A stretch of 31,529 nucleotides of DNA, taken from the IMG/VR virus record IMGVR_UViG_3300035070_004257, positions 1 to 31,529 of that record. One strand, 5' to 3'. Below are positions 6,481-28,214 of this stretch, piece by piece. How positions within the stretch are numbered: the first letter of the stretch is position 1; each line of letters opens with the position of its first letter. The DNA comes from a virus. A program made the position numbers and the translations under genes. Under the pieces are notes generated by a model. It had not been told where the DNA came from. It saw only the letters and a list, made by a program, of their open reading frames with translations, and made no database searches.

Positions 6481-8579
6481 GCATCGAAACCCGCCTACGC
6501 TACAGTTTGGCCCACTGGCTGCTCAAAGCCAGCCAGATCCAGACCTTGAACACGCTGACCTTCCCCGGCTGGCAGCGCGCCAGTGATACGCTGCTGCGTG
6601 GCTTTGAGGCGCTGACCCGCGAGGGCTATCAAAAAAACGCGGTGGTGTTTGCGTGTCTTTCAGCGCTCGCTTTTGATTTTCCTGAGCCGCCGCTCCTGGT
6701 CTACGGAGAAGACAGCGACGACGCTAAGGCGCTCCCAAAGCACCCTTTACGAAAGCTCATCGCCCGGCCCAATGCCTTCATGGGTGAGCGTGAGCTGTGG
6801 ATGTATACGATGGTTTATTTGGGGATTGGGGGCAATGCCTACTGGCATAAGGTGCGGAATGCGCGTGGGCAGGTGATTGAGCTCTGGCCCTATCACACCC
6901 TGGCGATTCAGCCCTATACCGATCCGACCACACCCCACTGGATTGACCACTACCTGCATACGACCGCTGATGGTCGTCAAATCGCTGTCCCTGTTAAAGA
7001 TATTGTGCATTTCAAATGGCCTAGTGTTGATATGGCTCAGCCCTGGCTTGCCCAGCCGCCATTGTTGGCCGTCAGCGCGGAAGTCGGTGCGGATAATGAG
7101 ATGACCCTGTATCTCCAGTCGCTGATGCTCAACGATGCCATTCCGCGCACCATTTTGGTGCAAAATCCCAATCGCTTCATGTCGCCTGACGAAATCGACC
7201 GCGCCAAAAATCAGTTTATGGCGAATTACGGGAGCAACAAGCGCGGCGGGGTCATGATTTTGGAGGCAGGCACCGAAATCAAGCGCCTCGGCCTTGACTT
7301 GCAAGAGATGGCCTTTGATGCCATGCATAAGGTGCCAGAGAAGCGCATTGCCGCCGCGTTTCGGGTGCCGTTGAGCGTGGCGGGGATTGGCGACGATCCG
7401 ACCTACAGCAACTCAGAAGAAGCCTACAGCCGCTATATCCGCTCCACGCTTGCCCCGCTCTGGAAGCTGACCGATGATGAGGTGCAAAACAGCCTCGGTG
7501 ATGAATTCGGCGTGTGGGTTGAGCGTGATTTAACCAAAGTAAGCGCCCTGCAAGAAGATCAAAATCAGCTCTGGGGACGCGTGAATAGTGCATTTCAGGC
7601 GGGGCGGCTCACGCTCAATCAAGCTAATCAACTCTGTGGGTTGCCGCCTGTTCCTGGGGGCGACATGTATCTCTGGTCAGCGAGTGTCTTTCCTGTGCCC
7701 GCTGCGCAGGTAGGTGCGATGGCGACGGCTGAGGCAGAAGCGGCGCTCAGACCACCTACACCACCCGTGCAGGCGCTTCCTGCTCCCGATCCTACAAACA
7801 ACGAGACTGATCTGTCCAATGATAACGATGTGACCGATGTCCCCAAACAGGCTGAAAAGGCATCGCTGGCAACCGCGCGCCGCCTGGCCCGTGCGCTCCA
7901 GCGTATTCGGCGACGGATTGAGCCGCGCTGTGAGAAGGCGATTGCAGGGTATTTTGCTGACCTTGCTGAGGTCATGGTACAACGTGCCGAAAATAGCGCG
8001 AAAAATAATAACTTACCGACCATTGAGCAACTCTTTTTGGAAATTGACGGAGTCAAGCTCGTCGATCTGCTCCAGCGCTACTATCTTGAGATTATCCAGG
8101 CCAGTTGGGAAACCTGGAATATCAGCATTGGCATTGAAGCAGCGTTTGAGCAGACTGATCCCGCCGTCGTTGCAACACTTGCACATGCTGGCTTGCAAGT
8201 ACGCCAAATCAATGACACGACGCTAACCGCGCTGCGTGACCTGTTGCAGTATGGGGCCGATCAAGGATGGTCACTGGAGCAGCTCGTTGAAGGCACTGCC
8301 GATCATGTGGGTCTTCGAAAAATTATTACCGAAACGTATGCAGGTCGGGCGCGAACCATTGCGCGTACCGAATTAGGGACGGCGCAGCAACATTGTGCCA
8401 TTGAGCGCTATCACGCCGCAGGGATTGATCAGGTCTATGTCCATGATAATGGCATGGATGACAGCGATCCGCGCTGTACTGCCCTCAATGGCACAATACA
8501 GAGTTTGGACTGGGCACGCCAAAATCGGTTGCAGCATCCGAACTGTGTGCGCTGCTTTGCGCCGTATGTGGAGGAGTGA
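6477..8579 (+). CDS. Portal protein fused to a Mu gpF-like head morphogenesis domain
   Basis: Residues about 1-420 are an HK97-type portal, the dodecameric gate for DNA (for example VVFACLSALAFDFPEPP, LPKHPLRKLIARPN, GEREL, VPLSVAGIGDDPTYSNSEE). A Pro/Asp/Asn-rich linker covers about 430-475. Residues about 480-700 form a helical region ending in a MuF (SPP1 gp7-like) domain: RTELGTAQQH, DDSDPRCTALNG and the terminal HPNCVRCFAPYVEE. In most phages these are two genes. No stop or frameshift separates them here, so this is a real fusion. It shares its last base with the next start. Confidence 0.9.
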   Translation: MSIETRLRYSLAHWLLKASQIQTLNTLTFPGWQRASDTLLRGFEALTREGYQKNAVVFACLSALAFDFPEPPLLVYGEDSDDAKALPKHPLRKLIARPNAFMGERELWMYTMVYLGIGGNAYWHKVRNARGQVIELWPYHTLAIQPYTDPTTPHWIDHYLHTTADGRQIAVPVKDIVHFKWPSVDMAQPWLAQPPLLAVSAEVGADNEMTLYLQSLMLNDAIPRTILVQNPNRFMSPDEIDRAKNQFMANYGSNKRGGVMILEAGTEIKRLGLDLQEMAFDAMHKVPEKRIAAAFRVPLSVAGIGDDPTYSNSEEAYSRYIRSTLAPLWKLTDDEVQNSLGDEFGVWVERDLTKVSALQEDQNQLWGRVNSAFQAGRLTLNQANQLCGLPPVPGGDMYLWSASVFPVPAAQVGAMATAEAEAALRPPTPPVQALPAPDPTNNETDLSNDNDVTDVPKQAEKASLATARRLARALQRIRRRIEPRCEKAIAGYFADLAEVMVQRAENSAKNNNLPTIEQLFLEIDGVKLVDLLQRYYLEIIQASWETWNISIGIEAAFEQTDPAVVATLAHAGLQVRQINDTTLTALRDLLQYGADQGWSLEQLVEGTADHVGLRKIITETYAGRARTIARTELGTAQQHCAIERYHAAGIDQVYVHDNGMDDSDPRCTALNGTIQSLDWARQNRLQHPNCVRCFAPYVEE

Positions 8580-17867: not shown

Positions 17868-19016
17868 ATGAGTGCAAACTATTACATCCAATGGAAAAGT
17901 AGCACAGGTACCCGCAAGGCCATCCTCGCAGGTGCAGGATCAGGGCAGGGTGACACCGGAGGCGCGTATTTTACGCGCCTCGCGTATCGCAAGGAATTGA
18001 ACGCGCCCGGCTGGTTTCGTATTGATGTGCCTGCTCAGCTTCCAGCACACATTGGGATAAGCGATCGCGATCAGGTCGAAATCTATCGACGCGACAAGGA
18101 TGCAGGGATCGCCTGGGCAGTTGATTGTCATGGCATCTTTCGCGATGAGGCGATTGTTGATGATCGGGCAACCGGCCATGAGACCTTTCAAGCCAGTGGG
18201 CCAGGAGCATTGGCACGACTAAGTAGTTATCATGTGTTGTGGCCTGCCAATACAGCCAACCGCACAAGCTTTGCCAGCATACCTGCTGAAACGATTCTCA
18301 AAACGCTCGTTAGCTATAACGCTGTTTCAGCACTCGCAACCGTAGCGAATGGACGAGATCGCACAGCACCCGACTATGGGATCAGTGTCCAAACGGATAC
18401 GACCAGTGGGGCGGTTTTGACGCTTGTGACGGGAGAACGTAAAAATCTCTTGAGCGTTCTCCAAGATATGCAGCCACTTACGGGTGGCGACTTCGATCTT
18501 ATCAAAATTGCTGCAAATAGTTGGCAATTCCGTTTCTATCCTGGGCAACGCGGCACAGACCGCCGTAGCACGCTGCTTTTTAGCAAGCGTCTCGGCAATA
18601 TGGCCAATGTGCGCTATGAGCGCATGCGCAGTCGGGAGCGGACGGTTGCCGCCGTCGCAGGACAAGGAGAGGAGGCAGCGCGGCGTGTGGTGATTCGTAC
18701 GGGGCCAAACTACAGCGCCTGGAATGACAGTGAAATGCTGGTGAATGCGACCGATATCAAGCCAGGCGCCAGCGAAACTGCGCAACTCAACGCAAAAGGT
18801 GATACCGTACTCAAAGACATCGCGTCACGGGCCGTGTTTGCGTTTGATATTCTCCAAACACAATCATGTCGTTATGGTCGCGATTTTTTCTTGGGCGATC
18901 TGGCACAAGCCTATCATCCATGGATCGGCACGATTGACATTCAGATTACGGCCATTGAGGTGGAATACACGCCAGGTGATGGCGAGCAACTCACGGTGGA
19001 GGTCGCCATACGATGA
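17868..19016 (+). CDS. Baseplate hub / tail-associated protein (ReqiPepy6 Gp37-like)
   Basis: The 382-residue protein resembles siphovirus Gp37-like hub proteins. It has an N-terminal beta domain (FTRLAYRKELNAPGWFRIDV, VEIYRRDKDAGIAWAVDCHG), a central region (GERKNLLSVLQDMQPLTGG) and a C-terminus of the hub type (RYGRDFFLGDLAQAYHPWIG, then EVEYTPGDGEQLTVEVAI). These proteins cap the tail tube and carry fibres. It overlaps the next gene as ATGA. Confidence 0.75.
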   Translation: MSANYYIQWKSSTGTRKAILAGAGSGQGDTGGAYFTRLAYRKELNAPGWFRIDVPAQLPAHIGISDRDQVEIYRRDKDAGIAWAVDCHGIFRDEAIVDDRATGHETFQASGPGALARLSSYHVLWPANTANRTSFASIPAETILKTLVSYNAVSALATVANGRDRTAPDYGISVQTDTTSGAVLTLVTGERKNLLSVLQDMQPLTGGDFDLIKIAANSWQFRFYPGQRGTDRRSTLLFSKRLGNMANVRYERMRSRERTVAAVAGQGEEAARRVVIRTGPNYSAWNDSEMLVNATDIKPGASETAQLNAKGDTVLKDIASRAVFAFDILQTQSCRYGRDFFLGDLAQAYHPWIGTIDIQITAIEVEYTPGDGEQLTVEVAIR

Positions 19017-19543
19017 ATGCCGATAAACCATTCCTCACGGCAACTACAAGCGATCAGCTAGCGATGGAGCTTGCCGCACTCCGGCGACGGATCGAGCAGC
19101 TTGAAGGACGGGAGCAGTCTGTTTCGCAATCGGGCACCTGGGTGCCAACACTGTTTGGGGCTACGACAGCGGGCACGTTTACCTATGCATTGACAGGTGC
19201 GCAGTGGTCGCGACTCGGCGACCGTGTATTTGTTAACGGTCGCATCCTGACCTCAGGCGCATCTGTCGCACCTGCGGGAAACATGCAGATTAGTGGCCTC
19301 CCCGTCGTGCCAGGCGCGAGCACGAACAATGGCAATATCCTCGGGGGCGTCACAATCATCTGGTCAGCACTGCCGCTCGCGGCAGGCTACACATTCGTCA
19401 GCGGTGGAATTGTGGGAGGTAATGCAAATATCTATCTCTATAAATCGGGCATGAATGTCGCTCGCGCATTTGTAGCGCATACCGATCTACCCGCCTCATG
19501 GGCTGTTGATCTCTTTTTTTGGGGGATGTACAAAGTCGATTAA
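19013..19543 (+). CDS. Tail fibre / minor tail protein with C-terminal beta domain (176 aa)
   Basis: Residues about 15-40 form a coiled coil (LAMELAALRRRIEQLEGRE), suggesting a trimer stalk. From residue 44 a compact domain begins GTWVPTLFGATTAGTFTYAL with SRLGDRVFVNGRI, a pattern shared by many phage tail-tip proteins whose C-terminal domain contacts the host. It is the last certain gene of the late operon. Confidence 0.75.
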   Translation: MNADKPFLTATTSDQLAMELAALRRRIEQLEGREQSVSQSGTWVPTLFGATTAGTFTYALTGAQWSRLGDRVFVNGRILTSGASVAPAGNMQISGLPVVPGASTNNGNILGGVTIIWSALPLAAGYTFVSGGIVGGNANIYLYKSGMNVARAFVAHTDLPASWAVDLFFWGMYKVD

Positions 19544-19801: not shown

Positions 19802-20089
19802 TTACTGAAGGTGAACTTCGCCTGTGTCGGGGCGACGCAGGACGAGGATATCATTGCCGATTTGGAGTTCGAGTTCATCCCGACTGGCGCGGAGCACGCG
19901 CGCCAATTCGGGGCGATGAAAGGGCGGGTCGCCGCCGAGCGACTGGCGCTCGAGGATCAGGTACTCATCGCGCCGAAAGGCAGCGACCGACGGGCGGCGA
20001 CCCGCCCCTGGTCGCTGCCCGCCTCGACTGGTGGTAGAGATGCTACAATATCTCCCCGTCCCACGCTTCGACCGCCAGGAGCGGGGCAT
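19802..20089 (-). CDS. Hypothetical protein with GGxRPGAGRxP motif (start uncertain)
   Basis: The C-terminal 70 residues look real: TTSRGGQRPGAGRRPSVAAF, then RRDEYLILERQ, HRPELARVLRASRDELELQI and GNDILVLRRPDTGEVHL. The GG-RPGAGR motif usually lies close to the N-terminus of phage proteins, which would put the start near 20041, where only ATC is available in frame. The nearest ATG (20089, used here) overlaps the upstream gene by 47 bases. No family is named with confidence. It is the last gene of the accessory operon, ending just before the bidirectional hairpin. Confidence 0.55.
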   Translation of the reverse strand: MPRSWRSKRGTGRYCSISTTSRGGQRPGAGRRPSVAAFRRDEYLILERQSLGGDPPFHRPELARVLRASRDELELQIGNDILVLRRPDTGEVHLQ

Positions 20090-25927: not shown

Positions 25928-25952
25928 GCCCTGCTTGGTGGTCAAGCAGGGC
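25928..25952. repeat. Hairpin in the leader of the 173-aa gene
   Basis: GCCCTGCTT (25928-25936) pairs with AAGCAGGGC (25944-25952) around a 7-base loop. Only a short ATGTTT follows in the plus direction. Between this and the terminator at 26050 no gene is seen. Confidence 0.6.
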
Positions 25953-26049: not shown

Positions 26050-26079
26050 ACAAAAACGCCATCCATGACGGGTGGCGTT
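26050..26079 (-). terminator. Intrinsic terminator downstream of the tRNA-like element
   Basis: On the minus strand AACGCCACC, loop, GGATGGCGTT, then a TTTTT run (stem 26071-26079 with 26055-26064). The first arm overlaps the 14-bp outer stem of the tRNA-like element, so the two structures exclude each other. Confidence 0.85.
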
Positions 26080-26187
26080 GGAATGCGCTACAATTGGAGC
26101 CGATGGTCGGTCTCGAACCGACGACCTGCTGTTTACGAAACAGCTGCTCTCCATGCTGTTCGTCGCCTCCAACCGCATTCCAACGCC
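26074..26187 (-). other. tRNA-Thr(CGU)-like element inside a 14-bp inverted repeat
   Basis: On the minus strand 26153-26095 matches the 3' two-thirds of a bacterial tRNA-Thr: D-stem half GAGC, anticodon arm GCTGT-TTCGTAA-ACAGC (anticodon CGT), T-arm GTCGG-TTCGAGA-CCGAC, acceptor half CATCGGC, T and encoded CCA. The 5' part does not make a D-stem, and its acceptor half (GGCGACG) pairs only five of seven bases, so a working tRNA is unlikely. Instead TTGGAG pairs with CTCCAA beyond the CCA, and a perfect 14-bp inverted repeat (26174-26187 with 26074-26087) closes the structure. It could be a phage attachment site copied from a host tRNA gene, or a tRNA-mimic RNA. Confidence 0.75.
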
Positions 26188-26434: not shown

Positions 26435-26463
26435 AGTATAGCACAGATTGTGTATATACACAA
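26435..26463 (-). promoter_or_regulatory. Promoter with 16-bp palindromic operator
   Basis: On the minus strand there is TTGTGT (26458-26463), 17 bp and TATACT (26435-26440), with the ATG at the expected start of transcription. TTGTGTATATACACAA (26448-26463) is a perfect palindrome over the -35. The adjoining CAAGAGGCAA (26461-26470) also occurs at the -35 of the 21410 promoter. Confidence 0.85.
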
Positions 26464-26608: not shown

Positions 26609-27826
26609 TCATCCCACGGCCTCATCGAGCGTTGCCAGCAGCCTCTGCTCAATCACATGATCATCTTCCTGATACACCTGCGGAATGAGTGCTGTGGCGT
26701 CAGGATCGGCATCGCTCCACTTCTGCGGGTATGTGCGCAGCGCAATCAATTCCCGAATACGCGCCTCTTCCTCTGCATTGATCAGATCAATACGAGGCCG
26801 CTCCTGGCGGTCGGCCATGCAATTGACTTCTAACTGGATGGTCAATACGCGCTCAAGCGCCCAGGCCCGCGCCTCCAGTGTCAACGGGCCTTTGCGATTT
26901 GGATTGCTGCTAAGACGGCCGTCTTTATTGGTTTCGCCTGCTTTTTGTTTGCGATGCACAAACTTGCGCAACTCGATATACAGCGGCCTGAGCTTCTTGA
27001 GCGGAGCCAGGTAGCTCCACTGCGGCAAACTGATCACATAGTCTAATGCCTGATCCTTTGTGGCGAGGGGGCAGCCAATACAACCCGTGCGCGCATTGAT
27101 CTCTTCAGCTTCATTCCCGCCGTAGACCTCCGCAACCAACGCGGTCGGCAATCCATGTTCCACGCTGTTAAAGGTCAACCAATCCCACACATGGCACACG
27201 CGCCAGTGCAGGAGCGGGGCCAGCGTGTCGGCAACGCTGGCGGGCGTCGTCTTTTGGAACCAGCCTTGCCCACATTCCGCCCCGTTTTTGCTGCAACTGA
27301 GCGCAATCCGCTGATCGCGGGCCGCGCTCTCTCCCATACGCACACCGGTCAACATGAGAAACTTTTCGCCGCGATCATCGCGCAGCTGCGTGAGTGCGTT
27401 GGTCATGGGTTCCACTTTGAGCTGGGGCGTACACCATCGTAGCGTATTGTTATTGGGCGGTGGCACGCCGCGACCGAGCATGTACACGAAGTAGCGATCA
27501 TCCAGTTTCGGCAGCACGACCCGCGCCTCAAAGCCGCGTGCCCGTACTGCGTCTAACATCTGCATGGCGCTGTAATACAGCGGTGGCAGTTCTTGGCGCG
27601 TATCGGCATACAGCACCATCAAGCTCGCTGGACGCGGAATCTGCTGCGTTTCGATCAGATGCAGCACCGCCGCGACCGTGGCGCTGGAATCCTTGCCGCC
27701 ACTATAGGCAATCGCCCAGTGGCGGTAGTCCAGGCCGTAGGCCAGCAGGCTCTGGCGTGTCAAATCAAGACTATCCTCCAGCGTCAGGCGCTGGTCGTCA
27801 AAATAGCTCAGTTGTTTACGATTCAT
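26609..27826 (-). CDS. DndC-like / PAPS reductase-family PP-loop enzyme (405 aa)
   Basis: The family activates substrates with ATP; DndC members insert sulfur into the DNA backbone together with DndA/D/E. The PP-loop SGGKDS is at 42-47 (IAYSGGKDSSATVAAVL). Typical followers are LYADTRQELPP, RWCTPQLKVEP (C132) and LTGVRMGESAARDQR. Further Cys (C178, C185, C249, C252 in TGCIGCPL) may hold an iron-sulfur cluster. The start MNRKQLSYFDD follows GGAGG, and the long in-frame upstream extension lies inside the preceding gene and is rejected. No other dnd gene is visible, so a phosphorothioate product cannot be assumed. It could serve another modification. Confidence 0.82.
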   Translation of the reverse strand: MNRKQLSYFDDQRLTLEDSLDLTRQSLLAYGLDYRHWAIAYSGGKDSSATVAAVLHLIETQQIPRPASLMVLYADTRQELPPLYYSAMQMLDAVRARGFEARVVLPKLDDRYFVYMLGRGVPPPNNNTLRWCTPQLKVEPMTNALTQLRDDRGEKFLMLTGVRMGESAARDQRIALSCSKNGAECGQGWFQKTTPASVADTLAPLLHWRVCHVWDWLTFNSVEHGLPTALVAEVYGGNEAEEINARTGCIGCPLATKDQALDYVISLPQWSYLAPLKKLRPLYIELRKFVHRKQKAGETNKDGRLSSNPNRKGPLTLEARAWALERVLTIQLEVNCMADRQERPRIDLINAEEEARIRELIALRTYPQKWSDADPDATALIPQVYQEDDHVIEQRLLATLDEAVG

Positions 27827-28214
27827 GCTCTTGTCCTCCAAGACTCGCGGGATCGATCCACAGCTGCCCGGTCGGACTGCGTCGCCAACTGCGCAGTCGC
27901 CCTGTTGTGGCAAACAGGCGTACCATCGTGTGCGAGTAGTGCATGCGCTGGGCGGCGTCGGCGACCGACACATAGCCCGGTGGCGGCTGCAGCGCGGTGC
28001 CGTAGCGCCGGGCCACCAGCTGCGCTTGATTGCAAGATCGGCAGCCATGCTTGACGCTGAGCATGGCCTCCACCGGCGCACAATGCTTGCCAACGCTGCA
28101 CCAGCGCCAGCCTGCGGCTTTGCAGGCCTCACACAGTTTGTTGGCGTTCGCCACGCCCCGCTGATGACAGCGGAGGCAGCGCTTGCGCGCCCCGATTAAT
28201 CGCCCACCGCGCAT
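27816..28214 (-). CDS. Zinc-finger protein with MerR/excisionase-type HTH (132 aa)
   Basis: The N-terminal half has Cys pairs (CLRCHQRG, LCEAC, WCSVGKHC, CRSC) fit for two zinc sites. The C-terminal half (GYVSVADAAQRMHYSHTMVR followed by a GRLRSWRRS wing) is a winged helix-turn-helix as in excisionases and MerR-like regulators. ATG follows GGAGGAGG and overlaps the methyltransferase end by 19 bases. It is a DNA-binding accessory or regulatory protein; the partner is unknown. Confidence 0.75.
   Translation of the reverse strand: MRGGRLIGARKRCLRCHQRGVANANKLCEACKAAGWRWCSVGKHCAPVEAMLSVKHGCRSCNQAQLVARRYGTALQPPPGYVSVADAAQRMHYSHTMVRLFATTGRLRSWRRSPTGQLWIDPASLGGQEHES

Follow-up and report, generated by a model that had tools for sequence, protein, structure and literature searches.

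A site on the minus strand of the window, the 31,529-base stretch of DNA analysed here, is very probably a phage attachment site (attP), by which a tailed phage would insert itself into a Chloroflexota host at the tRNA-Thr(CGU) gene. Direct support comes from the sequence identity of its tRNA part, the restorability of a tRNA gene in silico, a terminator, and a target gene shared with other elements. Read from 5′ to 3′, the site has five layers, namely a P-side arm, an inner arm, a 55-nt tRNA part, a P′-side arm and an intrinsic terminator beginning within that last arm (Table 1), and it sits between a 72-aa and a 173-aa open reading frame on the same strand. The window spans an IMG/VR record in full; as a contig it is linear and possibly not complete. 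Its plus strand holds the head and tail module of a tailed phage (terminase, portal, protease, capsid, tape measure), and its minus strand carries genes for replication and modification together with others of unknown role. The assignment points to Chloroflexota as the probable host group, and to tRNA-Thr(CGU) as the insertion gene, of a phage known from a metagenome alone.

Table 1. Features of the proposed attP and its two neighbouring reading frames, in minus-strand order
Feature	Sequence	Positions	Strand	Remark
72-aa ORF directly upstream of the site		26427-26209	(-)	possible ribbon-helix-helix-like regulator
P-side (upstream) arm of the 14-bp inverted repeat	GGCGTTGGAATGCG	26187-26174	(-)	
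Inner arm	TTGGAGGCGA	26172-26163	(-)	partner TCGGCTCCAA at 26103-26094
3′ part of tRNA-Thr(CGU)	GAGCAGCTGTTTCGTAAACAGCAGGTCGTCGGTTCGAGACCGACCATCGGCTCCA	26149-26095	(-)	proposed attP core, identity block
Anticodon loop	TTCGTAA	26139-26133	(-)	presumed crossover region (anticodon-class site)
Anticodon	CGT	26137-26135	(-)	
P′-side (downstream) arm of the 14-bp inverted repeat	CGCATTCCAACGCC	26087-26074	(-)	
Intrinsic terminator (AACGCCA..TGGCGTT + TTT)	AACGCCACCCGUCAUGGAUGGCGUU-UUU	26079-26052	(-)	
173-aa ORF downstream of the site		25860-25339	(-)	without known family

The 55-nt block comprises the 3′ strand of the D-stem, the anticodon arm, the variable loop, the T arm, the 3′ strand of the acceptor and the CCA, and is identical at 54 of 55 positions to the Chloroflexota tRNA-Thr(CGT) of L115. 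The match to host tRNAs runs from the D-stem 3′ strand to exactly the CCA, with unrelated sequence on the 5′ side, and a one-sided match of this kind follows the pattern of an attP in a tRNA gene. By blastn, the tRNA part also matches annotated phage tRNA-Thr genes. When the phage 3′ part was grafted onto seven 5′ halves taken from host tRNA genes, ARAGORN called tRNA-Thr(cgt) in 7/7 chimeras, so that joining a host 5′ half restores the gene in silico. An earlier sequence-only reading of this DNA had described a tRNA-Thr(CGU) 3′ part lying within a perfect 14-bp repeat and followed by a terminator on the minus strand, a description borne out by the coordinates and by the host match. The inner TTGGAG/CTCCAA pairing that it reported (26172-26167 with 26099-26094) is likewise present, and at 9/10 pairs is longer than had been claimed.

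The element is not a tRNA gene, as it lacks the complete cloverleaf of D arm and acceptor stem. ARAGORN called no tRNA on the phage site alone, and the Rfam tRNA model gave 26.5 bits with the D arm unpaired and 5/7 acceptor pairs, a score that falls below the curated cut-off of 29 bits because the D arm is missing; on these two results a functional or decayed tRNA gene was rejected. The full Rfam model nevertheless aligns across the site, as might be expected of a phage-encoded tRNA-Thr gene in decay (a pseudo-tRNA), yet decay would not be expected to stop at one point, leaving a near-perfect 3′ part beside an unrecognisable 5′ part, and other phages, as well as an integrated element, have the same 3′-only block. 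We regard a pseudo-tRNA as very improbable.

A tDNA attP contains the 3′ part of the gene it targets, and integration thereby restores that gene (PMC4383910). Anticodon-centred tDNA sites have been defined (PMC4383910), the Williams sublocation classes of such sites are cited in PMC2647930, and a published parallel is the putative 53-bp att site of a cyanophage (PMC2784084). For the site described here, we infer a site-specific crossover at the anticodon loop that would connect the host 5′ tRNA half with the phage-borne 3′ half. The host would thereby retain a working tRNA-Thr, whose restored transcript would stop at the terminator just past the CCA. The P and P′ arms are linked by the 14-bp inverted repeat, which would serve either as a recombinase accessory feature or as a transcription feature.

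The same tRNA gene is used by other elements of this host group. The exact tRNA-fragment pattern had no match in viral contigs or genomes, and looser patterns found the tRNA-Thr(CGU) 3′ block in three viral contigs, L221 (IMG/VR 3300037484_001098), L222 and L223 (IMG/VR 3300043331_001395). Their blocks run from the anticodon loop or stem to the CCA, starting at the loop in L221 and L222, and a tyrosine integrase gene adjoins the block in L221 and L223. Contig L194 of the genome G027 (Chloroflexi SRR2107179_bin.52) holds an intact tRNA-Thr(CGT) and, behind it, a terminator, a tyrosine integrase gene and an HTH_17 (excisionase-like) gene; a displaced tRNA-Thr 3′ fragment, starting at the anticodon stem, lies on another contig (L193). 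L194 and L193 share a 20-bp repeat, AGGGGGCCAATGAGGGGGCC, as would be expected of the two ends of a single integrated element. Tyrosine integrases in the host group thus target this tRNA gene (G027, L221, L223), which serves as an insertion point for several unrelated elements. Downstream of the displaced fragment, positions 1541-19189 of L193 encode GmrSD, an Eco57I-type methylase and AAA/PD-(D/E)XK proteins, likely a defence island at the tRNA-Thr gene. Around integrases of distant relatives (neighbourhoods L183-L192), Rfam found no tRNA fragment.

The terminase and head genes of the window are syntenic with regions in three Chloroflexota genomes, whose terminases are 53-54% identical to that of the phage. 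Their tRNA-Thr differs (about 77% identical), and these genomes are therefore not hosts of this phage. No integrated copy of the phage was found, and a search for the CCA plus arm pattern across 400 Chloroflexota genomes matched G027 only, in a different element. A prophage/host boundary (attR) within the contig was rejected, since phage genes stand on both sides of the site. Pfam profiles detected no tyrosine or serine recombinase in the 31.5-kb contig, a profile built from related integrases detected none in any frame of the window, and no recombinase gene flanks the site, in contrast to L221 and L223. An integrase supplied by the element itself is a usual, not an invariable, trait of tDNA attP sites. 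As the contig is linear and possibly incomplete, the integrase gene of this phage may be missing from it, may have been lost, or may come from another element.

The terminator lies 15 nt past the CCA and combines a GC-rich hairpin of -11.8 kcal/mol with UUUUU. Its position suggests that it would end the tRNA-Thr transcript once integration replaces the native downstream sequence, and terminators close behind the CCA are also found in L223 and in the G027 element (L194). The sequence-only reading had proposed that the long stem and the terminator cannot coexist. Folding reproduced the competition, with the competing structures at -70.0 and -76.8 kcal/mol, 6.8 kcal/mol apart. The proposed geometry holds in outline, and strict exclusion does not: the terminator takes only the outer 6/14 pairs of the long stem, which is therefore partly compatible with it. 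Once its second arm has been made, and before the second arm of the terminator exists, the long stem has a predicted probability of 0.99. For the terminator pairs, folding of the attP transcript with an unaltered P arm predicts a probability of 0. Replacing the P side by a host 5′ half raises this to ~0.5-0.6 if the transcript stops at the U run and to ~0.1 if it is 5 nt longer, and shuffling of the P arm raises it to a mean of 0.67.

These predictions are what would be expected if the attP were a switch that reports the integration state. In the free phage, the P/P′ repeat would sequester the first arm of the terminator, and transcription of the 72-aa gene would run on into the 173-aa gene; in the prophage, the arms would be parted to opposite ends and the terminator would fold behind the restored tRNA-Thr. 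By such an arrangement a phage could, in a simple manner, tie gene expression to the integrated state. The rise in terminator pairing on loss of the P arm and the early predominance of the long stem both favour it. Against it, the long stem and the terminator can partly coexist, the model presupposes transcription across the site, and none of the four comparator sites has the inverted repeat, so that compensatory changes lend the switch no support. We consider the switch unlikely.

The inverted repeat itself is well beyond chance. Local shuffling predicts ~0.03 perfect 14-bp inverted repeats with arms 20-150 nt apart per window, and 3 were found, that of the site among them; the 114 nt enclosed at the site fold at -57.6 kcal/mol (z = -6.4), with 0/200 shuffles as good. 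A second perfect 14-bp repeat, ATTGTGCCATTGAG, lies in the 3′ part of the portal gene (8392-8405 / 8484-8497) and folds strongly on both strands. A third strong inverted repeat, GGCGGGTCGCCGCC, occurs at 19923-20006, soon after the tail-module ORF 19013-19543, and has no clear U run.

The usual arrangement at such sites is a set of direct arm repeats bound by the N-terminus of the integrase (PMC8074189). The comparators follow it: L221, L222, L223 and the virtual G027 attP all have direct repeats of 9 to 23 nt in both arms (p by shuffling ~0.08, ~0.04, 0 and 0, respectively), and none of the four (0/4) has a significant inverted repeat. The window site shows the 14-nt inverted repeat (0/200 shuffles) and no significant direct repeat, its longest being 7 nt; direct arm-type repeats on both sides are a typical, not a defining, trait of tDNA attP sites. 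Near the tRNA-Thr end of L221, L222, L194 and L128, the arm repeats are paired ~12 bp apart (for example ATGACACAAAGATGACACA, GGGGGCCAATGAGGGGGCC), which suggests one style of integrase with changing recognition sequences.

The inverted arms may themselves be binding sites for a recombinase or accessory protein, quasi-symmetric about the anticodon loop, with the recombinase encoded off the contig. Their distances from the loop are 33 nt on the upstream and ~45 nt on the downstream side, the other sites are also flanked by arm repeats, though direct ones, and L193 has a similar stretch of 17 nt next to its tRNA-Thr fragment; the sequence behind that displaced fragment agrees with the P′ arm at 13/14 positions. 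A match to the CCA plus arm pattern in L202, inside a coding ORF, was discarded as chance. The arm motif thus also occurs by chance in coding DNA, and the L193 match is therefore meaningful only by its position beside the CCA. The arms are inverted here and direct in the comparators, no recombinase was found in the contig, and a search for the opposite arm in G027 gave chance-level matches only. We regard the binding-site explanation as a tentative possibility. The exact P/P′ inverted repeat was found in no other viral contig.

The 72-aa product is possibly a ribbon-helix-helix-like regulator, as its structural model, of low-to-moderate confidence, places helices at 12-30, 37-49 and 52-61; a Pfam search with it gave nothing above the cut-off. 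The palindrome-like sequence TGTATATACACA at 26449-26460, just upstream of TATACT and the 72-aa ORF, is a possible operator of a self-regulated gene. Farther upstream, a PAPS-reductase-like gene (26609-28132) is common among phages, with relatives in at least 80 viral contigs (roughly 50-76% identical), and the tRNA-Thr site is absent around those in L002-L081. The product of the 173-aa ORF is neither ThrS nor a recombinase and matches none of the known families, and a search of viral contigs found no relatives. The leader of this gene contains a perfect 10-bp hairpin, GCCCTGCTTG/CAAGCAGGGC, at 25928-25952, without a U run.

The sequence-only reading had inferred that a tRNA-Thr mimic, compared with that of the thrS leader, could control read-through into the 173-aa gene. 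A mimic of this kind, whether thrS-leader-like or T-box-like, could draw on the intact anticodon arm, T arm and CCA, and on a geometry that resembles an antiterminator. The downstream gene, however, encodes no aminoacyl-tRNA synthetase and no thrS lies nearby, the Rfam T-box and other leader families gave no match, and the tRNA fragment adjoins integrases elsewhere without the hairpin. L221, L222, L223 and the G027 element all keep the tRNA part and lack the 14-bp repeat, the very combination that the sequence-only reading had named as its refutation, and it speaks against a conserved tRNA-mimic switch. A thrS leader or T-box was rejected on the absent Rfam match and the wrong downstream gene, the tRNA part being better explained as attP tDNA, and we consider a regulatory mimic extremely improbable.

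The E. coli thrS leader, which carries a tRNA-Thr-like anticodon arm and acts on the translation of thrS mRNA, is the known RNA that the site recalls. The anticodon arm is the shared feature; the window has no thrS downstream, and the E. coli leader acts on translation and has no tDNA block ending in CCA. The attP sites of L221 and L223 have the tRNA-Thr(CGU) 3′ block in common with the window, and L223 also has the terminator just behind the CCA; both differ in their adjacent integrase, their direct arm repeats (23 bp in L223) and their lack of the 14-bp inverted repeat. The G027 element shares the target gene, the terminator after the CCA and a displaced fragment followed by CGCATTNCAACGCC-like sequence, and differs in its tyrosine integrase and HTH_17 genes and in the 20-bp direct repeats of both arms. 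Compared with the tDNA attP of known tyrosine-integrase prophages and islands (Islander, PMC4383910), the window has no integrase in the contig, its arms are inverted rather than direct, and integration is not observed; it resembles them in its anticodon-centred position and in a fragment that reaches from about the anticodon stem to the CCA and makes the host gene whole again. In all, the site is very probably an attP in tRNA-Thr(CGU), of a kind already known, and its inverted repeat is the unusual part.
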